DNA of 51,547 nt, from contig VBEF01000027.1 in the NCBI GenBank assembly GCA_005881275.1, positions 1 through 51,547 on the forward strand, given 5' to 3'. Below are positions 5,695 through 31,209 of the stretch, in pieces. The stretch comes from Chloroflexota bacterium. GTDB lineage: Bacteria > Chloroflexota > Dormibacteria > Dormibacterales > Dormibacteraceae. The notes under the pieces were generated by a model that did no database searches, had not been told where the DNA came from, and saw only the letters and a list, made by a program, of their open reading frames with translations. Both the position numbers and the translations under genes were made by a program. Position 1 is the stretch's first letter. Every line of letters starts with the position of its first letter.

Positions 5695-6287
5695 TTGAGC
5701 TGAACCTCGAATCCGTGGTCGGATTGGGTCACCTCGACATCGCCCGCCTTGATCCTTACCCCGCCAGGGGTTCGCGTTGCGACGACGGAACCTTCGAATA
5801 CCAGCTCGTCAAATCGCCACTCCTTGCCGTGCTTGCGCATGCGGACGATGGCGCCCTGCGGGCTTCGCCACACGCCCTCGCCGGACGGTTTGAAGCCTCG
5901 CGTGACCAGCTCGCCCAGCTGGTCCGGGATTGCTTCGGGCGGAGGTTTCGCCGCCGGCCAGACCACTGGCTTTTCTCTGGAACTGCCTGGCTGGGGAAGC
6001 ACACGGAGATTTGGCTTTTTCTCTCTCGCCTGCTCCAGCGACAGCCGGAGCAGCTCGGAGCCCTCTTCCTGGGCAAAGAAAGCTCCGGAGATGCGCGCCC
6101 GGTCCTTCGAGCGACGGATGCAGTTCGCGCAATCTGGCTCGGAATCGACAGCCGCGTATGAGCCTTCGCCGAGCGTCTGGCCGCACAGGGTCGTGACCGG
6201 TCCCGAGCGGGGGACCCTGGGGGTTAGATGGATCCGTCCGCCAGACTTGCGGCCGACGGACTCGAGCTTGATCGTGTGCACCCCCAA
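5685..6287 (-). CDS. Hypothetical protein with possible zinc-binding cysteines
   Basis: This 200-residue protein is not recognised. The N-terminal part (GGRIHLTP, TTLCGQTL, CANC) holds three cysteines in a pattern that could bind metal. The middle is Pro-rich and charged, and the C-terminal 80 residues look like a compact beta-rich domain ending in KKK. The frame starts with TTG; a GTG six bases downstream (6281) is an equally plausible start. It converges on the ABC operon and shares its terminator region. Confidence 0.55.
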   Translation of the reverse strand: MGVHTIKLESVGRKSGGRIHLTPRVPRSGPVTTLCGQTLGEGSYAAVDSEPDCANCIRRSKDRARISGAFFAQEEGSELLRLSLEQAREKKPNLRVLPQPGSSREKPVVWPAAKPPPEAIPDQLGELVTRGFKPSGEGVWRSPQGAIVRMRKHGKEWRFDELVFEGSVVATRTPGGVRIKAGDVEVTQSDHGFEVQLKKK

Positions 6288-23074: not shown

Positions 23075-24079
23075 ATGAAAGGCGTCAGCCTCGTAGCGGG
23101 CATCGCGTGTTTGGTGGCTTTGGCGGGATGCCGCCCGAACCAGGTTGCGCAGCCGACCAGCCCGGCGCGATCCCCATCCGCCTCGCCGAGCCCCTCGCCC
23201 TCACCTTCGCCACTGCCTCCGCAGCGACTGGAGGCTGCGTTGCCGGCGCCGATCGAGGAGACCGGCGCGGCGACCGCCGCGGGCAGGCTTTACGTGATGG
23301 GCGGATTCAATGCGGCCGGGGTGAGTCTGGCCTCGGTTTATGTGTTCGACGGCAACACGTGGGCAGCCGGTCCGCCCCTGCCGCTTGCGGTCGACCATCC
23401 CTCCGCGGCGACTCTTGACGATCACGTTTACGTGGCGGGCGGGCACAGCTACGGCAGGGACAGCGCGCGTCTGTTCAGGCTCGACTCTGACCACTGGACC
23501 GAGCTGGCCTCGATGCACTTCGCCCGTGGCGGCCACGGGTTGGTCGCGGCGCAGGGGCGCCTTTACGCCATCGGCGGCAACAACAGCCGTGGCAACGTCG
23601 GACCGCTCGAGGCCTACGATCCCGGCTCCAACACGTGGTCGGTGCTCACCGCGTTGCCAGCAGCGCGTAACCACGTGTCCGGCTTCGTCGCCAACGGTGC
23701 GGCATGCGTCGCGGGAGGCCGCTCGCCCACGACCGGCCGCGTCGACTGCTTCGATCCGGCCTCGGGCGCCTGGTCGCGGTTGCCTGATCTCCCGCTGCCC
23801 ACGAGTGGCGGCGGGGCAACCTCGTTCGTCAGCGGCGACGTGGTGATGACAGGCGGCCAGGACGCCAGCGAGACCGGAATTGTCGATCAGCTCGTCTTCT
23901 ACTCGCAGGGCGGCGCCTGGACGGGCAGCGAAAAGATGATGTCGCCGCGACACGGGTTCGAGCTCGCCACATTCGAAGGACGCGCGTGGGCCTGTGGCGG
24001 AGGCAGCGCGCCGGGTCTTCACCCGGTCGCAACATGCACCTCAGTCGGGGATGGGCCGGCCGCGTCCCTGAACAATTGA
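23075..24079 (+). CDS. Kelch-repeat propeller lipoprotein
   Basis: The 334-residue protein begins with a lipoprotein signal (LVAGIACLVALAGC) and a Ser/Pro linker of SP repeats, followed by six kelch motifs. Their double-Gly cores read YVMGG, YVAGG, YAIGG, CVAGG, VMTGG and ACGG. It should be an extracytoplasmic six-bladed propeller, of a type often used for binding. ATG 23075 was chosen for the signal peptide although the frame extends upstream over deoC. The last 39 bases overlap the convergent metalloprotease-like gene. Confidence 0.88.
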   Translation: MKGVSLVAGIACLVALAGCRPNQVAQPTSPARSPSASPSPSPSPSPLPPQRLEAALPAPIEETGAATAAGRLYVMGGFNAAGVSLASVYVFDGNTWAAGPPLPLAVDHPSAATLDDHVYVAGGHSYGRDSARLFRLDSDHWTELASMHFARGGHGLVAAQGRLYAIGGNNSRGNVGPLEAYDPGSNTWSVLTALPAARNHVSGFVANGAACVAGGRSPTTGRVDCFDPASGAWSRLPDLPLPTSGGGATSFVSGDVVMTGGQDASETGIVDQLVFYSQGGAWTGSEKMMSPRHGFELATFEGRAWACGGGSAPGLHPVATCTSVGDGPAASLNN

Positions 24080-24538
24080 CATGACCGCAACGCTCAGTGT
24101 CGTCAGCACGATGACAAGCAATGGGACGCCGTAGTTGAACTCAGGGGTGGTCAGGAGTGGAAGGTCTGTCTTCCACACCACCTCGAGCAGAAGGTCGCCC
24201 AGCTCGATGATCGCGAAGAAGATCAAGATCACGACATTGGCGGCCAGGGCCGCGAACGGGATCGGCTGCCGGACATAAAGAAGAAGGGCGGCCAGTGGAA
24301 TCGCCGCCAGGAAAGGCCCGAAGAAGTTCACAATCGCCTGCCGCACGACATCAAGCTCGTGCGCAGGTTGCGCGTGCAGCGCATAGATCGTGAAGTTCAC
24401 GTAGCCGAGACGCCACGGACGAACGATGATCGAGCCGTCGACGCCGACCGCGTAGATCAAGAGCAGGTGCATCACCTCGTGGGCGCCGAAGCCCAGCATG
24501 AAGATGAGCAGTGAAAGCACGAGAACTCGAATGACCAA
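24041..24538 (-). CDS. Small membrane protein with HEXXH motif (M50-like candidate)
   Basis: The 165-residue, four- to five-helix membrane protein has HEVMH at residues 20-24 in its first helix, the placement seen in intramembrane site-2-type metalloproteases. NFFGPFLAAIP in a later helix faintly resembles the family's second motif, but no clear third metal ligand (NPDG-like) is found. Activity is therefore uncertain. The frame starts with TTG 24538 close behind a GAGG. It is divergent from csoR, so the copper operator may affect it too. Confidence 0.65.
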   Translation of the reverse strand: MVIRVLVLSLLIFMLGFGAHEVMHLLLIYAVGVDGSIIVRPWRLGYVNFTIYALHAQPAHELDVVRQAIVNFFGPFLAAIPLAALLLYVRQPIPFAALAANVVILIFFAIIELGDLLLEVVWKTDLPLLTTPEFNYGVPLLVIVLTTLSVAVMSIVQGRGRPIPD

Positions 24539-24578: not shown

Positions 24579-24600
24579 ATACCCCGAGGGGGTATACAAT
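24579..24600 (+). promoter_or_regulatory. CsoR-type operator overlapping the csoR -10 element
   Basis: ATACCCC (24579-24585) and GGGGTAT (24589-24595) form a 17-bp G/C-rich inverted repeat like known CsoR operators, which are A/T-flanked runs of C and G. It runs directly into TACAAT (24595-24600), a -10 element whose end is 8 bases before ATG 24609. No ribosome-binding site is present, so the mRNA should be leaderless. Repressor binding here would cover the promoter. Confidence 0.8.
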
Positions 24601-24608
24601 CCTAACTC

Positions 24609-24884
24609 ATGCCAGGCTATACGACCCACAAGAGAGCGGTTCAGGGAAGGCTGCGTCGTGTCGAGGGGCAGGTCCGGGGCATCCAGAAGATGGTTGAGGA
24701 CGATCGCTACTGCATCGACGTACTCACGCAGGTGAGCGCCGCCAAAGCTGCTCTGGACGGCATCGCGCTGCTGCTGCTCGCCGACCACACGGAGCACTGC
24801 GTCGCCGAGGCGATCCGTGCCGGAAGGGGCGGCGCCAAGGTCAAGGAGCTGAACGGCGCCGTCGAGAGACTGGTGAAGGCATAA
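24609..24884 (+). CDS. csoR: Copper-sensing repressor, CsoR/DUF156 family
   Basis: The 91-residue four-helix repressor has the three Cu(I) ligands of true CsoR proteins: Cys35 (RYCIDVL), His60 and Cys64 (DHTEHC). Basic helix 1 reads HKRAVQGRLRRVEGQVRGI. Copper binding in this family releases DNA. The gene is first in a tight plus-strand run and carries a CsoR-like operator over its promoter, so it probably represses itself and the downstream permease and ligase genes until copper rises. Confidence 0.93.
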   Translation: MPGYTTHKRAVQGRLRRVEGQVRGIQKMVEDDRYCIDVLTQVSAAKAALDGIALLLLADHTEHCVAEAIRAGRGGAKVKELNGAVERLVKA

Positions 24885-24885
24885 C

Positions 24886-26082
24886 GTGTTCGTCCTCTTG
24901 GCGATCTGGGACGCGCTGCAGATGGCCTTCTTCATGTTCTGGGAGGTCCTGTGGCCGCTCGTCCTGGGCTTCCTGATCTCGGCCGTCGTCCAATCGCTCG
25001 TCCCGCGAGAGGCGGTGGTGAGGGTGTTGGGCAGAGACGACCTGCGGAGCGTGACTTTCGCCACGCTGCTCGGTGCGGCAAGCTCCAGTTGTTCTTACGC
25101 CGCGGTCGCGGTGGGGCGCAGCCTCTTTCGCAAGGGCGCCACGTTTGCCAACGCCATCCTCTTCGAGTTCGCGAGCACGAACCTGGTGTTCGAGCTCGGG
25201 CTCGTCCTCCTCATCTTGCTGGGCTGGCAGTTCCTGGCCGCCGAGTTCGCCGGTGGGCTCCTGATGATCGCGATCCTCGCCGTGATCTTCAAGTACACCC
25301 TCCGCGCCCGCATGGTCGACGCCGCGCGGGTCCAGGCTGAGAGGGGGCTGCGGGGACGGATGGAAGGCCACGGCGAGATGGATATGTCAGTCACGGGAGG
25401 GCCCTTCCTGGCGCGGCTCTTCTCAACCCGCGGCGTCACCGCGGTCAGCCATTACTTCTATGGGGACGTGGCCAGCGTGGCCCAGGACCTCCTACTCGGC
25501 TTCCTCATCGCCGGCGCCCTGGCCGCCTGGGTGCCCAACAGCTTCTGGCAGGCACTGTTCATCTCAGGCAACCCAACGCTCGGCACGATCTGGGGGCCGA
25601 TCATCGGCCCGGTGATAGCGATGCTCAGCTTCGTCTGCTCAGTGGGCAACGTCCCGCTGGCGGCGGTCCTCTGGAGTGGGGGAATCAGCTTCGGCGGAGT
25701 GATCAGCTTCATCTTTGCCGACCTGCTCATCCTTCCCATCCTCAACATCTACCGGAAGTACTACGGCGGCCGGATGAGCCTCTACCTGCTCGGCACCTCA
25801 TATCTCGCGATGGTGCTGGCCGGGTTGATCATCGGCGGCCTGTTCCAGCTGCTCGGTCTCGTCCCTGCCCACCAACATATCGAGGCGTTTCAGGCCCGAC
25901 CATCCTGGAACTACACGACATTTCTCGATGTCGCCGCGCTTGCGCTCGCCGGCGTCCTCGGCTGGAGGTTCCTGCGCACCGGCGGCCGTGAGATGCTGCG
26001 GATGATGGAAGCCGCGCCAACGGGTGGCCACGAGATGGCTCACCATGACCACCATGGCGACCACGACCATCACCACCGCTGA
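24886..26082 (+). CDS. DUF318-family metal permease with histidine-rich tail
   Basis: The 398-residue membrane protein (about 8-9 helices) matches the permease family that includes ArsP and the SO_0444-type Cu/Zn efflux proteins. Its repeat-related motifs are GAASSSCSYAAVAVGRSLF and ISGNPTLGTIWGP. The last 20 residues contain many His (HDHHGDHDHHH), a likely metal-binding tail facing the cytoplasm. GTG start is one base after the csoR stop. CsoR control, the His tail and family membership point to copper or another soft-metal export, but transport of a metal-organic complex made by the downstream enzymes is also possible. Confidence 0.85.
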   Translation: MFVLLAIWDALQMAFFMFWEVLWPLVLGFLISAVVQSLVPREAVVRVLGRDDLRSVTFATLLGAASSSCSYAAVAVGRSLFRKGATFANAILFEFASTNLVFELGLVLLILLGWQFLAAEFAGGLLMIAILAVIFKYTLRARMVDAARVQAERGLRGRMEGHGEMDMSVTGGPFLARLFSTRGVTAVSHYFYGDVASVAQDLLLGFLIAGALAAWVPNSFWQALFISGNPTLGTIWGPIIGPVIAMLSFVCSVGNVPLAAVLWSGGISFGGVISFIFADLLILPILNIYRKYYGGRMSLYLLGTSYLAMVLAGLIIGGLFQLLGLVPAHQHIEAFQARPSWNYTTFLDVAALALAGVLGWRFLRTGGREMLRMMEAAPTGGHEMAHHDHHGDHDHHHR

Positions 26083-26785
26083 GGTGCAGCGGGACTACAT
26101 CAAGGAATACAGCCATTCACTGGGCCGAGACATGGAGCTGCTCCACTTCGGCCATGTCGGCAGGCCGCTGCTCGTGTTCCCGACCTCGATGGGCCGCTTC
26201 TACCAGTGGGAGGACTTCGGCCTCATCGGGGGTCTGAGCGATTTCATCGAGTCGGGCGCGGTCCAGCTCATCTGTGTCGACAGCGTCGACGGCGAATCCT
26301 GGTACGCGAAGGACCGTCCGGTCGCTGACCGGGTCAGGCGGCACCTCCAGTACGAGGCCTACATCGTGGATGAGATCCTGCCCCGGATCCCCGAGCGCCC
26401 GGTGGCCTGCGGCGCGTCCTTCGGGGCGCTGCACGCGGTGCTGTTGGCGGCTCGCCATCCCACCAGGCTCGGCGGGTTCATCGCCCTCAGCGGGGCCTTT
26501 GACACGGCGCAATGGCTCGACGGCTACCACGACGACAACACGTACTTCACCAACCTCATGGCCTTCCTCCCAGGCTTGATCGACGAGGCGTACCTCGGTC
26601 CGCTGCGGGCGATGCGTCCCAAGGTGGTGGCGACCGGCGAGCAGGACCCCAACGTCGACGACTCGAGAAAGCTCGCGGCGCTCCTGAGGGACAAGGGCGT
26701 CGATGTAGGGCTCGATATCTGGCCCGGATGGGCGCACGATTGGCCCTACTGGACGGACATGATGCGTCGCTACCTCGCCGGCTGA
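26045..26785 (+). CDS. Alpha/beta-hydrolase esterase (COG4947-like)
   Basis: The 246-residue protein looks like the esterase family COG4947. It has PLLVFPTSMGRFYQWEDFGL near the start, the nucleophile elbow region CGASFGALHAVL, Asp in ATGEQDPNVDD and catalytic His in WAHDW. The nucleophile elbow reads G-A-S-F-G, with Ser as nucleophile. ATG 26045 or 26054 both lie inside the permease's His-tail coding region, so translation is coupled. Esterases of this type are recurrent neighbours of ATP-grasp and GCS2 ligases, where they may release or trim a peptide or ester product. Confidence 0.82.
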   Translation: MTTMATTTITTAEVQRDYIKEYSHSLGRDMELLHFGHVGRPLLVFPTSMGRFYQWEDFGLIGGLSDFIESGAVQLICVDSVDGESWYAKDRPVADRVRRHLQYEAYIVDEILPRIPERPVACGASFGALHAVLLAARHPTRLGGFIALSGAFDTAQWLDGYHDDNTYFTNLMAFLPGLIDEAYLGPLRAMRPKVVATGEQDPNVDDSRKLAALLRDKGVDVGLDIWPGWAHDWPYWTDMMRRYLAG

Positions 26786-26813
26786 CCCGATTCACCAATC
26801 AAGAGGAAAGAAG

Positions 26814-27791
26814 ATGGCTCCAAAGAAGATCGTCGGACTCCTGGTCGGACGCGAGAACACCTTTCCGGGCCCGTTCCTCGAGATGGTCAACCAGAAGGGA
26901 AAGGCGGATGGCATCACTGGCGAGCTCGCCGTCCTGGGCGGCACGCCTGAGCTGGCGGAGCCGTACCACGCGGTGCTCGTCGACCGGATCTCGCACGAGG
27001 TGCCGTACTACAGAGCTCACCTCAAGAGCGCGGTGCTGATGGGGGCCGTGGTCGTCAACGACCCGTTCTGGTGGGAGGCTGACGAGAAGTTCTTCGAGTG
27101 CACGCTGGCCCGCAAGCTCGGAGTTGCGGTGCCGAAGACGGTCGTGCTGCCCAACAAGCAGTACATCCCAGACATCGACCACGTCCGCTCCCTCCGCAAC
27201 CTGCAGTTTCCCCTCGACTGGGAGCACATCGTTTCGTACACCGGCTTGCCGGCCGTGCTCAAGCCCAACACGGGGGGAGGCTGGAAGGACGTCTTCATCG
27301 TGCACACCATGGAGGAGCTCATCACCGCTTACGACCAGACCGGCTTGAAGACGATGATCCTGCAGGAGTTCATCGACTGGGACGACTACGTCCGATGCAT
27401 CTGCATCGGCCGCGAGCACGTCATGCCGATCCGCTACAACCCCAAGGCCCCATTCGAAGCGCGCTACCAGATCTCGCAGCCGGTGGAGGGCACCCTACGG
27501 GATCAAGCAATAAAGGACGCGCGAACTCTGGTCGAGGCCCTCGGTTATGACATGGACACCGTCGAGTTCGCGATCAAGGGCGATGTCCTCTACGCCATCG
27601 ACTTCCTGAACCCCGCTCCCGATTTCGACAACTTTTCCATCAAAGAGGACAGCTTCCGCTGGGTGGTGGACAAGATGAGCGACCTGGTGCTCGCGTACGC
27701 GCGGGGCGAGGCCACTCCGCCGTGGCGTGAGGAATACCGCTGGTGGAAGTACGTGAAGAAGACACCCGTGCCGAATCCCGTAGGGACTTGA
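26814..27791 (+). CDS. ATP-grasp ligase (RimK/glutathione-synthetase-like)
   Basis: The 325-residue protein has an N-terminal pre-ATP-grasp domain (KKIVGLLVGRENTFPGPF), an ATP-grasp core with substrate/ATP loop PAVLKPNTGGGWKDVFIV, LQEFIDWDDYVRCI, and a metal-binding DFLNPAPDFDN near the C-terminus. These enzymes join a carboxylate to an amine through an acyl phosphate. A good AAGAGGAAAG ribosome-binding site precedes ATG 26814. It is followed, with a 4-base overlap, by a second ATP-grasp gene. Substrate unknown. Confidence 0.88.
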   Translation: MAPKKIVGLLVGRENTFPGPFLEMVNQKGKADGITGELAVLGGTPELAEPYHAVLVDRISHEVPYYRAHLKSAVLMGAVVVNDPFWWEADEKFFECTLARKLGVAVPKTVVLPNKQYIPDIDHVRSLRNLQFPLDWEHIVSYTGLPAVLKPNTGGGWKDVFIVHTMEELITAYDQTGLKTMILQEFIDWDDYVRCICIGREHVMPIRYNPKAPFEARYQISQPVEGTLRDQAIKDARTLVEALGYDMDTVEFAIKGDVLYAIDFLNPAPDFDNFSIKEDSFRWVVDKMSDLVLAYARGEATPPWREEYRWWKYVKKTPVPNPVGT

Positions 27792-29107
27792 GTGATGCGG
27801 GCGTGAAGGACCCCGTCGTCGCCTTCCACGCCCTCCTTCAAGACGAGCGGCTTGCGGCCGACAGCGCTCAAGCCCTGGCCGACGGCCAGCGCGAAAAGCA
27901 ATTGATGTTCGGGGAGCGTCCGCTTTGTGTCGCCCTGCGGCCGCAGCTGCTCACGCGCCGCCGCTTTGAGCAGGCCGTTTCGGCCGCGGAGGGGGTCGCT
28001 TCAGCGCTTTCCGCCCTGGAAAAAGCGGTGCTTGATGACGCCGTGCTTCGCGCCGAGCTGGCTCTCGAGTCAGAGGAGGAGCGGCTGGCGATGGCCGACC
28101 CAGGCTTCAGGTTCTCGTCGCCCTCGGTCCGGCTCGACAGCTTTTTCGCGGATCAGGTCCGGTTCGTCGAGTACAACGCCGAATCGCCGGCGGGCATGGC
28201 CTACAGCGATAACCTGACCGAGGTCTTCAAACGGCTGCCGGTGATGCAGGCCTTCCGCAAACGGTTTCGAGGCAAATTCATGCCGACCCGCCGCCGTCAG
28301 CTGAGCGCGATGTTGGGGGCATTCAAGCAGTGGGGGAAGAGCACGACGCCGGTCATCGCGATTGTGGATTGGGAAGGCCTGCCGACCGCGCCGGAGTTCG
28401 AGATGTTCAAGGCTTTCTTCGAGGAGGCCGGGATCAGGACGTTGATCTGCGACCCGCGGACGCTGGAGTTCACCCGCGGCAAGCTCCACTCCCAGGGGAC
28501 CGCCGTCAACCTCGTCTACCGACGCGTCCTGACGAGCGAACTCCTCGCCCGGGGCGATGACACCCGCGCCCTGCGCGACGCTTACATGGCGGGCGCCGTT
28601 TGCGTGGTCAACAGTTTTCGGGCCAAGCTCCTGCACAAGAAGATGAGCCTCGCGCTGCTCTCCGATGAGCGGTACGAGCGTCTGTACACGCCCGCCCAGC
28701 GAGCGGCCGTCCGGCGCCACATCCCCTGGACCCGGCAGGTCCGCCCCGAGCTGGCCGAGGACATCGCGCGGCGCCGCCAGACCCTGGTCCTCAAGCCGAA
28801 CGACGAATACGGAGGCAAGGGCGTCGTGCTCGGCTGGACAGTGGACCAGGCGGAGTGGGAGGCGGCGATCGATGTCGCCACCAGGCAGAGCTACGTCGTC
28901 CAGGAGGCGGTCGAGATCCCTCGGGTCCCGTTTCCGATCGCTCTCGACGGCATCCGTTACCTCGACCTGGCCGTCGACCTCGACCCCTACCTCTTCAACG
29001 GCCGCGCCGGCGGCTTCATGACCCGCGTCTCGGCGGCCGCCCTCCTCAACGTGACGGCCGGTGCGGGCAGCGTCGTGCCAACATTCGTGGTCGAGGGGCC
29101 AGCATGA
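27788..29107 (+). CDS. Second ATP-grasp-fold ligase, possibly circularly permuted type
   Basis: The protein is 439 residues from TTG 27788, which overlaps the preceding stop (TTGA); GTG 27803 is an alternative start. The Gly-rich ATP loop LKPNDEYGGKGVVLGW lies near residue 340, unusually close to the C-terminus. The acidic/Asn motif FVEYNAESPAGMAYSD lies near residue 125, ahead of it. That order suggests a circularly permuted ATP-grasp fold, or one related to glutathionylspermidine-synthetase-like ligases. It is coupled to the GCS2 gene by an ATGA overlap. Likely a second amide-bond-forming step; substrate unknown. Confidence 0.8.
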   Translation: MSDAGVKDPVVAFHALLQDERLAADSAQALADGQREKQLMFGERPLCVALRPQLLTRRRFEQAVSAAEGVASALSALEKAVLDDAVLRAELALESEEERLAMADPGFRFSSPSVRLDSFFADQVRFVEYNAESPAGMAYSDNLTEVFKRLPVMQAFRKRFRGKFMPTRRRQLSAMLGAFKQWGKSTTPVIAIVDWEGLPTAPEFEMFKAFFEEAGIRTLICDPRTLEFTRGKLHSQGTAVNLVYRRVLTSELLARGDDTRALRDAYMAGAVCVVNSFRAKLLHKKMSLALLSDERYERLYTPAQRAAVRRHIPWTRQVRPELAEDIARRRQTLVLKPNDEYGGKGVVLGWTVDQAEWEAAIDVATRQSYVVQEAVEIPRVPFPIALDGIRYLDLAVDLDPYLFNGRAGGFMTRVSAAALLNVTAGAGSVVPTFVVEGPA

Positions 29108-30216
29108 GTAGAGAAGGCTTGCTCACGATCGGCGTCGAGGAGGAGTACCAGATCATCGACGCGACAGGTCAGCTCCACGCGCACATCGACACCCTGCTCG
29201 CGAAAGCCGCGCCGCGCCTGGGCGACAAGGTGAAGCGGGAGATGATGCAGTCGGTGGTCGAGGTGGGCACCACCATTTGCGAAAACGTCGACGAGGCTCG
29301 CGACCAGCTCGGCGAGATGAGGCGCACTCTGTCGGAGCTGCTGCAGCCCGAAGGCCTGCGCATCGCCTGCGCAGGCACGCACCCGTTCTCGCGCTGGCAG
29401 GAACAGCAGATCACAGACAACGAGCGTTACAAGATGCTCGAGGAGGAGCTGCAGGACGTCGTCCGCTCGCTCGTGATCTTCGGCCTCCACGTCCACGTCG
29501 CGATTCCGAATCCGGAGCTGCGTATCGAGGTGCTCAACGAGGCGCGCTACTTCCTGCCCCACCTCCTTGCGCTCAGCACCTCGAGCCCGTTCTGGATGGG
29601 GCGCAACACTGGCCTTAAGTCGTACCGCAGCGTGGTCTGGTCGAACTTTCCGCGCACCGGCATTCCACCGGACATCAGCTCTTTCGACGAGTACCAGAAC
29701 TACGTTGAGCTGCTGGTGAAGACAGGCTCCATCGACAACGGGAAGAAGATCTGGTGGGATCTTCGCGCCCACCCCAGCTTCCCGACCCTCGAGTTTCGCG
29801 TTTGCGATATGCCGACCCGGCTGGAGGAGACGATCTGCCTCGCCGGGCTGATGCAGGCGATCTGCGCCAAGCTGCTGAAGCTACGCGCCGGGAACCTCGG
29901 ATTCCGCAAGTACATGCCCGCCCTGATCGCAGAGAACAAATGGAGGGCGATCCGGTATGGCATCGACGGCATGCTCATCGATTTCGGCAAGCAGGCTGAG
30001 GTCCCGATGCGAGACCTGGCGCTCGAGCTGCTGGAATTCATCGACGACGTGGTCGACGAGCTGGGGTCGCGCCAGGCGGTGGAGTACGTGCATACGATCC
30101 TGGCCGGCGGGACGAGCGCGGATCGGCAGCTGCGGGTGCTGAAGAACGGCGGCGACACCAGAGCGGTGGTTGAGCTGCTGGCGGCGGAGACGATGGGGAT
30201 CGCCGTCCCGGATTAG
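29104..30216 (+). CDS. GCS2-type carboxylate-amine ligase (YbdK/EgtA-like)
   Basis: The 370-residue enzyme of the gamma-glutamylcysteine-ligase-2 family has the Glu-rich metal/ATP motif GVEEEYQII at the N-terminus, FGLHVHVAI, RAHPSFPTLEFRVCDMPTR and the usual length. Family members ligate the side-chain carboxylate of glutamate or another acid to an amine using ATP. It ends the csoR-led run. The ATG overlaps the ATP-grasp stop by 4 bases, so it is very likely part of the same pathway. Confidence 0.9.
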   Translation: MSREGLLTIGVEEEYQIIDATGQLHAHIDTLLAKAAPRLGDKVKREMMQSVVEVGTTICENVDEARDQLGEMRRTLSELLQPEGLRIACAGTHPFSRWQEQQITDNERYKMLEEELQDVVRSLVIFGLHVHVAIPNPELRIEVLNEARYFLPHLLALSTSSPFWMGRNTGLKSYRSVVWSNFPRTGIPPDISSFDEYQNYVELLVKTGSIDNGKKIWWDLRAHPSFPTLEFRVCDMPTRLEETICLAGLMQAICAKLLKLRAGNLGFRKYMPALIAENKWRAIRYGIDGMLIDFGKQAEVPMRDLALELLEFIDDVVDELGSRQAVEYVHTILAGGTSADRQLRVLKNGGDTRAVVELLAAETMGIAVPD

Positions 30217-30244: not shown

Positions 30245-30574
30245 ATGAAGACCGCGAGCGCGTTGATCCGGGAGTCGGTCGGATCGTGGCCGGGAGTCAG
30301 CGCGGTGCCGCATCGTTTCGGCGGCACCGAATACATGTACGGCAAGAAGGAGATGGGGCACGTGCACGGCGACCGCCTTGCCGACCTGCCGGTTCCGCGC
30401 AGGCTGCACGACGAGCTGATCGCGGCTGGGCGCGCCCAACCGCATCACATCCTGCCTGAGACAGGCTGGATCAGCGTCTGGATCGAAAGCCCGGACGACA
30501 TCGCCGGCGTGATCGAGCTGTTCCGGATGCAGTACGACCGATACGCGAAGACTCCGACCCCATCAAGCGTTTAA
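30245..30574 (+). CDS. DUF5519 (luciferase-domain) family protein
   Basis: The 109-residue protein matches the DUF5519 pattern: FGGTEYMYGKKEMGHVHG, LPVPRRLHDELIAAGRA, HHILPETGWISVWI. Function of the family is unknown despite the luciferase label. It lies 28 bp after the GCS2 gene on the same strand and may share its transcript, or belong with the following TetR and reductase genes. Confidence 0.8.
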   Translation: MKTASALIRESVGSWPGVSAVPHRFGGTEYMYGKKEMGHVHGDRLADLPVPRRLHDELIAAGRAQPHHILPETGWISVWIESPDDIAGVIELFRMQYDRYAKTPTPSSV

Positions 30575-30579
30575 TTAGC

Positions 30580-30595
30580 CCCGTGTCGACACGGG
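30580..30595. promoter_or_regulatory. 16-bp perfect palindrome over the TetR start codon
   Basis: CCCGTGTCGACACGGG is self-complementary and contains the presumed GTG start (30583) of the TetR gene. It could be an autoregulatory operator or an mRNA hairpin that limits initiation. No supporting second copy was found. Confidence 0.4.
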
Positions 30596-31209
30596 CTGCG
30601 CCGCGCCATCCGGGAGCGGTTAGCGAGCGGAGGCGTCAGGATCTGGTGGTGGCCGCGTACCGCCAGATAGCCGAGCACGGATTCGAGGGCCTGCGCACTC
30701 GCGAGGTTGCAGCTGTGGTGGGGGTCAACATTGCAACGCTGCACTACTACTTCCCAACGAAGGAATCCTTGATTCGCGCAGTCCTCGACCACGCGATGGG
30801 CCGGTTTCGCACCACCCTGGCCCCGCACGGATCGCCCGCTGACCAGGTGCGCAACTACCTGCGCGCGACGCGGAAGCTGATGCTCGACGAACCAGAGCTC
30901 GGCGCGGTCATGGCCGAGCTTGCTCTTCGTTCCGTCCGCGACGATCAGATCGGTTCGATCATGAACGAGATGTACGACCTGTGGCACGTCACGGTGCGCG
31001 GACTCCTGCGCAGGTCGGTTCGCGAGGGCAAGCTGCGGCCTGAGGTCGACAGCGACGCCGTCGCGGCGCTGATCATCGCCACCCTTACCTCGATGACGCT
31101 GCCCGTCATGAGCGACGCGAGCCGAGGCGACCAGGCGCTCCGCCAACTGGAACGGTGGCTTGGAATCTCTGCTCCGAGGTCGGGACGCGCAACTCAAGCA
31201 ACTGATTGA
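30583..31209 (+). CDS. TetR-family transcriptional regulator
   Basis: The 208-residue protein has an N-terminal helix-turn-helix (about 25-70; VVAAYRQIAEHGFEGLRTRE and GVNIATLHYYFPTKESLIRA) and a ligand-binding C-terminal helical domain. GTG 30583 is the first start in the frame. It sits 52 bp upstream of the Ddn-like reductase gene, with an inverted-repeat operator between them, so it probably controls that gene and perhaps itself. Confidence 0.9.
   Translation: MSTRAAPRHPGAVSERRRQDLVVAAYRQIAEHGFEGLRTREVAAVVGVNIATLHYYFPTKESLIRAVLDHAMGRFRTTLAPHGSPADQVRNYLRATRKLMLDEPELGAVMAELALRSVRDDQIGSIMNEMYDLWHVTVRGLLRRSVREGKLRPEVDSDAVAALIIATLTSMTLPVMSDASRGDQALRQLERWLGISAPRSGRATQATD

Follow-up and report, generated by a model that had tools for sequence, protein, structure and literature searches.

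The window analyzed here is an entire contig (VBEF01000027.1) of 51,547 bases, taken from the 2.94 Mb assembly, 86% complete, of a Chloroflexota bacterium of the family Dormibacteraceae (GenBank assembly GCA_005881275.1). At positions 24579-30216 it contains an operator followed by six genes, which encode a CsoR-type copper sensor, a permease, an alpha/beta hydrolase, two ATP-grasp ligases and a GCS2 ligase, all in the same direction and never more than 28 bp apart. The permease gene (24886-26082, forward strand) starts 1 bp after the stop codon of csoR (24609-24884), and the GTG start codon of the hydrolase gene (26084-26785) lies 1 bp after the permease stop. The gene for ATP-grasp 1 (26814-27791) follows after 28 bp, and that for ATP-grasp 2 (27803-29107) after about 11 bp, the start of the latter being uncertain (27743, 27788 or 27803). 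Its end at 29107 overlaps the start of the GCS2 gene (29104-30216) at 29104. We refer to the last four genes as the ligase block. An earlier note on this DNA, made from the sequence alone, had given the same gene list and order, together with the operator and residues Cys35, His60 and Cys64 of CsoR, and these were confirmed. That note had also proposed a single Cu(I)-induced pathway for a copper ligand. We consider it probable that the locus is, rather, two separate modules lying side by side, a copper-export unit and an older ligase cassette of gamma-glutamyl type. The enzymes are kept where relatives lose the copper genes, and thus the two modules would have become neighbors.

CsoR matches the metal-sensitive repressor domain (PF02583) with 104.6 bits against a cut-off of 22.8, and is the sole CsoR-family match in the assembly. 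The closest chain in the PDB is the CsoR structure 4m1p (E=4.6e-24), and alignment with CsoR structures places Cys35, His60 and Cys64 in the ligand positions. A CsoR is defined by such a Cys-His-Cys ligand set and by a GC-rich pseudo-palindromic operator beside its own gene. The operator here, TACCCCGAGGGGGTA, occupies 24580-24594, 14 bp upstream of csoR, and is an exact pseudo-palindrome (TACCCC-GAG-GGGGTA), the single exact match to TACCCCN3GGGGTA in the assembly. When up to one mismatch was allowed, the operator pattern occurred at two sites and a backwards control pattern also at two, and thus the pattern alone is weak evidence; a looser site, ACCCC-GCCA-GGGGT, occurs at window position 5758. 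Positional conservation is stronger evidence for the operator than the pattern. We compared a genus set of 17 genomes (63-96% complete), 15 of which show the locus. An operator-type site lies upstream of csoR in all six loci with the gene in this position; the other nine loci yielded no such site. These sequence features support the prediction that csoR encodes a Cu(I)-type sensor heading a metal-permease gene.

The permease is a member of the ArsP_1 family (DUF318), with 220.7 bits to PF03773 against a cut-off of 32.3, and carries nine histidines among its final 30 residues, as expected from the DUF318-type permease with a His-rich tail described in the earlier note. In 9 of the 30 permeases examined, the His-rich tail is replaced by an end of the form GM.V...YYFC..C, matched by script and by eye, which we take to be a YHS-like metal-binding domain. 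Known CsoR operons combine csoR with copA or copZ. The present locus resembles CsoR-controlled copper export operons in the Cys-His-Cys ligands, in the conserved operator just upstream and in the transporter gene directly downstream, but the target here is an ArsP_1 permease, whereas theirs is a P1B ATPase. Profile searches found neither a P-type ATPase domain (PF00122) nor an HMA domain in this assembly; among control genomes, the PF00122 search was positive in 14 of 14 and the HMA search in 13 of 14. The best NCBIfam matches of the permease are the SO_0444 Cu/Zn efflux protein and the SaoE efflux protein, both far under cut-off. Its similarity to the SO_0444 family (NF033936) amounts to 56.9 bits against a cut-off of 300, which places it outside that family. 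SO_0444 of Shewanella oneidensis is reported to be needed for growth under ZnSO4 or CuCl2 stress and to be under a ZntR-like regulator (PMC3219624), whereas the permease studied here lies under CsoR. We propose that the permease is a copper exporter.

Each product of the ligase block was compared with known families. The hydrolase, with a GASFG nucleophile motif, matches PF00756 just above threshold (24.0 bits, cut-off 22), and Ser112, His218 and Asp219 are at least 95% conserved among 61 sequences; ATGs at 26045 and 26054 are alternatives to the GTG start at 26084. ATP-grasp 1 has no Pfam match. A profile of its family matched the D-Ala-D-Ala ligase 3r23 (E=2.1e-7), with biotin-carboxylase domains nearly equal (E=3.7e-7), and E251, D263 and N266 are invariant among 28 sequences, so that both fold homology and acidic metal-binding residues point to an ATP-grasp ligase. 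The protein represents an unnamed ATP-grasp family with no Pfam entry of its own, though at least 589 relatives were confirmed. In-frame TGA recoding among ATP-grasp 1 relatives was considered and rejected: seven stretches were checked, and the two with a stop had it at the C-terminal end. For ATP-grasp 2, a putative circularly permuted ATP-grasp ligase, the family profile matched the putative glutathionylspermidine synthase structure 3n6x (E=2.6e-11). Its score to PF14403 is 27.2 bits (cut-off 32), a relative at locus L166 scores 34.2, and 23 of the 25 proteins in its family reach E<=0.01; E123, N125 and E127 are invariant among 25 sequences. The GCS2 protein matches PF04107 (216 bits) and YbdK (1r8g, E=5.9e-54). 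Its GVEEE sequence fits GhExE, the GCS2 signature motif according to PMC2588565, and this signature is shared with YbdK. The protein lies above the cut-off of PRK13515 (516.9 bits against 371), as a YbdK-like carboxylate-amine ligase, but below that of PRK13516, the YbdK model, and differs from YbdK in that its gene adjoins two ATP-grasp genes. On these alignments the block enzymes keep their catalytic motifs, and the ligases are predicted, with support, to be fit for gamma-glutamyl or peptide-like amide bonds. Iyer and colleagues reportedly predicted ATP-grasp/GCS2 amidoligase gene clusters in 2009; these share with the present block the ATP-grasp and GCS2 ligases and a hydrolase in a conserved neighborhood. 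We know of no product of this ligase cassette.

Comparison of the 15 genus loci revealed how differently the two parts of the locus have fared. Every one of the 15 has the hydrolase and ATP-grasp 1, and none lacks ATP-grasp 2 or GCS2 where its contig extends far enough. The combination of operator, csoR and permease is present at six loci (that of the present genome, G000, and those of G261, G403, G404, G406 and G408); in G404 and G406 the permease is interrupted by frame breaks, which perhaps come from assembly. Four loci, those of G405, G087, G289 and G207, have the permease without csoR; for G207, where a contig ends in between, this is inferred. In a tree, the permeases of G087 and G207 lie on long branches, perhaps through relaxed constraint, and those of G405 and G289 are unremarkable. 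One locus (G400) has a broken permease with its middle gone. In the remaining four (G402, G409, G095 and G275) the permease is gone and has left a scar, consisting of the His-rich C-terminus and stop codon just before the hydrolase; G409 also retains an apparent permease N-terminus. Because the His-rich 3' end remains before the hydrolase start, the permease was deleted in these four genomes, and a primitive absence was rejected. The presence or absence of csoR brings no change in block content among the genus loci seen. In a tree of the four block proteins, all six genomes with csoR at the locus fall within a nine-genome clade (clade I). G402, which lost the unit, is sister to G404, which kept csoR (support 100), and G095, which also lost it, groups with G261 and G406, which kept it (support 84 and 100). 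This placement of the permease-less genomes therefore indicates repeated loss of the permease, by our reconstruction at least three times. Taken literally, the tree requires four or more losses, although support is 56 at two nodes in the other clade.

The genomes that lost the local permease have another one. A YHS-tailed permease is found elsewhere in the genome in all five without an intact local permease, and in none of the ten others. csoR occurs once per genome in 14 of the 17 genus genomes, six times at the locus and eight times elsewhere. At the other sites, its neighbor in G087, G289 and G207 is a P-type ATPase with a CPC motif. In G095, G400, G402 and G407 it adjoins a YHS-tailed permease and a P-type ATPase is near, and in G275 only a YHS-tailed permease adjoins it. 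No P-type ATPase was detected in any of the six genomes whose csoR lies at the locus, whereas 10 of the 11 others have one (Fisher p=0.0006, calculated without phylogenetic correction and from assemblies that are partly incomplete). Such a pattern would be expected if a copper-export unit were being exchanged for other exporters, and not if it were a partner of the ligases. Among the csoR-adjacent P-type ATPases, the motif is CPC in G087 (locus L251), G289 (L252) and G207 (L253), and CPD in G095 (L255), G400 (L246) and G407 (L257); the CPD type sits near csoR together with the YHS-tailed permease.

To get a broader picture, we sampled 400 genomes of the phylum, in which the permease was counted at E<=1e-10. 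ATP-grasp 1 was present in 99 of these, with strong matches in 92, and only the strong matches were used for comparison. Both genes were found in 31 genomes; 61 of the 92 genomes with strong ATP-grasp 1 had no permease, and 51 of the 82 with the permease had no strong ATP-grasp 1. They were seen side by side on one contig in just four genomes, G000, G087, G261 and G289, which all belong to this genus, and are probably adjacent across a contig break in G207. Separate contigs carry them in the genus members G095 and G275, as well as in all 24 non-genus genomes that have both. Of the 82 genomes with the permease, at least 20 have csoR within 0.5 kb of it, and only two of these 20 cases are at the ligase block.

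A wide scan covered one genome per species across 84,980 species. It confirmed at least 589 stretches with ATP-grasp 1, of which the best 80 were kept as named loci, mostly from Chloroflexota and Gemmatimonadota; genes were counted within the fetched flanks, and contig ends hide some. Among these best 80 loci, 63 have ATP-grasp 2, 44 have GCS2 and 60 have a hydrolase match (five of them weak, at 31-35%, and one, in L168, on the opposite strand), and all three ligases occur together in 40. The full four-gene set was seen in Chloroflexota, Gemmatimonadota and one Terrabacteria group record. Three Acidobacteriota loci (L149, L169 and L176) have the three ligases without the hydrolase, and ATP-grasp 2 is found in none of ten Myxococcota or Deltaproteobacteria loci. 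A search for ATP-grasp 1 in plasmids gave no match. The permease occurs in six of the 80 loci and a clear csoR in three, every one in this genus; a csoR-like match in L170 (27% identity, about 6 kb away) was left uncounted. No clear csoR lies beside the block in the 73 non-genus loci; in 61 of them, the sequence ahead of the block is longer than 2.5 kb. In a copper-induced biosynthetic operon the sensor would be conserved with the biosynthetic genes; here csoR stands at 6 of 15 genus loci, with no clear case among the 73 outside. The gene-neighborhood survey that the earlier note had suggested as a check therefore went against its pathway, in that the ligase genes usually occur without csoR or this permease (other regulators of the ligases were not searched for).

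The neighbors of the block were also compared, in 108 non-redundant loci, with families identified from one representative each. A second esterase is the commonest non-block family (15 loci), ahead of a subtilase, in 12 loci, and a C26 gamma-glutamyl hydrolase, in 10; the last of these fits gamma-glutamyl chemistry. The representative of the C26 family, which is PuuD-like, lies at L166:10360-11190; that of the subtilase family, at L078:6663-7928, is mycosin-like by a below-cut-off match. An ABC-type ATPase family occurs near the block in eight loci and two further families in nine and eight, so that a shared regulator or transporter may be present near the block at this lower frequency.

We propose that the operator, csoR and permease form one module, in which Cu(I)-bound CsoR would release the operator and the His-tailed ArsP_1 permease would export copper in place of the P-type ATPase CopA. 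The four enzymes would form a second, older cassette, whose product would be a small amide or peptide of gamma-glutamyl type with no connection to copper. In the genus ancestor, the permease would have come to sit 1 bp before the hydrolase. In csoR-bearing species, copper may induce the ligases by read-through, as a side effect of position and not as a conserved function. Several points weigh against this interpretation. Some of the absences within the genus may reflect missing sequence, and G405, the exception among the 11 genomes without csoR at the locus, lacks both csoR and a P-type ATPase. In the phylum, genomes with both ATP-grasp 1 and the permease are commoner than expected (odds ratio 2.6, p=0.0006), perhaps through shared ancestry. 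All four block genes are found together in only 27 of the best 80 loci, some of which are cut by contig ends, and the C26 neighbor could reflect lineage chance. The permease falls far under the SO_0444 cut-off, and we infer copper as its substrate because of CsoR, the tails and the context. No promoter-like site or terminator was seen at the permease-hydrolase junction, an uninformative result, with fewer sites than in shuffles. Because the gap there is 1 bp, co-transcription across this junction is likely in the present genome, and a role of the ligases in copper handling is possible in the six csoR-bearing species.

The single pathway of the earlier note, in which Cu(I)-induced ligases would make a gamma-glutamyl or peptide-like copper ligand for export by the permease, draws on the unidirectional, tightly spaced run of genes behind one CsoR operator, on the active-site motifs retained by the enzymes, and on a permease-hydrolase junction that dates to the genus ancestor. 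However, the ligases persist in nine genus loci without a local csoR and in five without an intact permease, no clear csoR was seen beside the block in the 73 named loci outside the genus, and loss of the permease coincides with another permease elsewhere and not with another link to the ligases. On gene distribution and the permease scars we rejected a dedicated copper-ligand pathway, and we regard this explanation as very unlikely. What holds of it is a predicted Cu(I)-type CsoR heading a metal permease, and ligases that appear fit for amide bonds; copper induction of the ligases for a copper ligand is not supported, as csoR or the permease is missing or broken at several genus loci that keep the ligases. 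That the permease exports the product of the ligases, with CsoR sensing something else or being incidental, would agree with the 10 genus loci, out of 15, at which permease and block are adjacent (one split between contigs and two with split permease frames). The phylum counts, in which each gene mostly occurs without the other, argue against this, as do csoR-permease pairs that recur without the block, some with the YHS-like metal domain, and we find the explanation most improbable.

The ligases might also have been co-opted for copper defense, for example through a thiol pool, in the csoR-bearing clade only and recently. Six of the nine clade I genomes have kept csoR, permease and block together, all six without a detected P-type ATPase, but G402 and G095, close relatives within that clade, have dropped the unit and still have the ligases, and block content is unaltered by csoR at the loci seen. 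Such recruitment therefore seems unlikely. A fuller scheme, in which copper in csoR-bearing species induces one six-gene transcript, the gamma-glutamyl-type product buffers Cu(I) and the His-tailed permease exports it, as a CopA-free defense recruited in one clade, strikes us as quite improbable.

The locus warns against a tempting pathway call: that enzyme genes are packed closely behind a copper sensor is no evidence for a copper-made metabolite where related genomes have lost the sensor but still have the enzymes. The CsoR-ArsP_1 export unit holds csoR in species without a detected P-type ATPase, and there appears to have been a natural swap of copper exporters inside one genus. The ligase cassette is widespread and merits study on its own terms. 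Among the literature titles and abstract openings listed, we found no operon joining CsoR with DUF318/ArsP or with ATP-grasp, and none joining ATP-grasp, a carboxylate-amine ligase and copper, which is weak evidence of novelty.

Two further features flank the locus in the genus. Upstream, a divergent gene at 24041-24538 on the reverse strand encodes a small protein, putatively of the membrane, which contains an HEVMH motif and matches nothing in Pfam or NCBIfam; genus relatives also have it next to the locus, even where csoR and permease are absent. Downstream of GCS2, and in the same direction, are a Luciferase-domain gene (PF17648) and then a TetR-family gene, the two at 30245-31209. The Luciferase-domain gene (30245-30574, 76.3 bits) recurs in 11 of the 13 loci of the genus that extend to this point.

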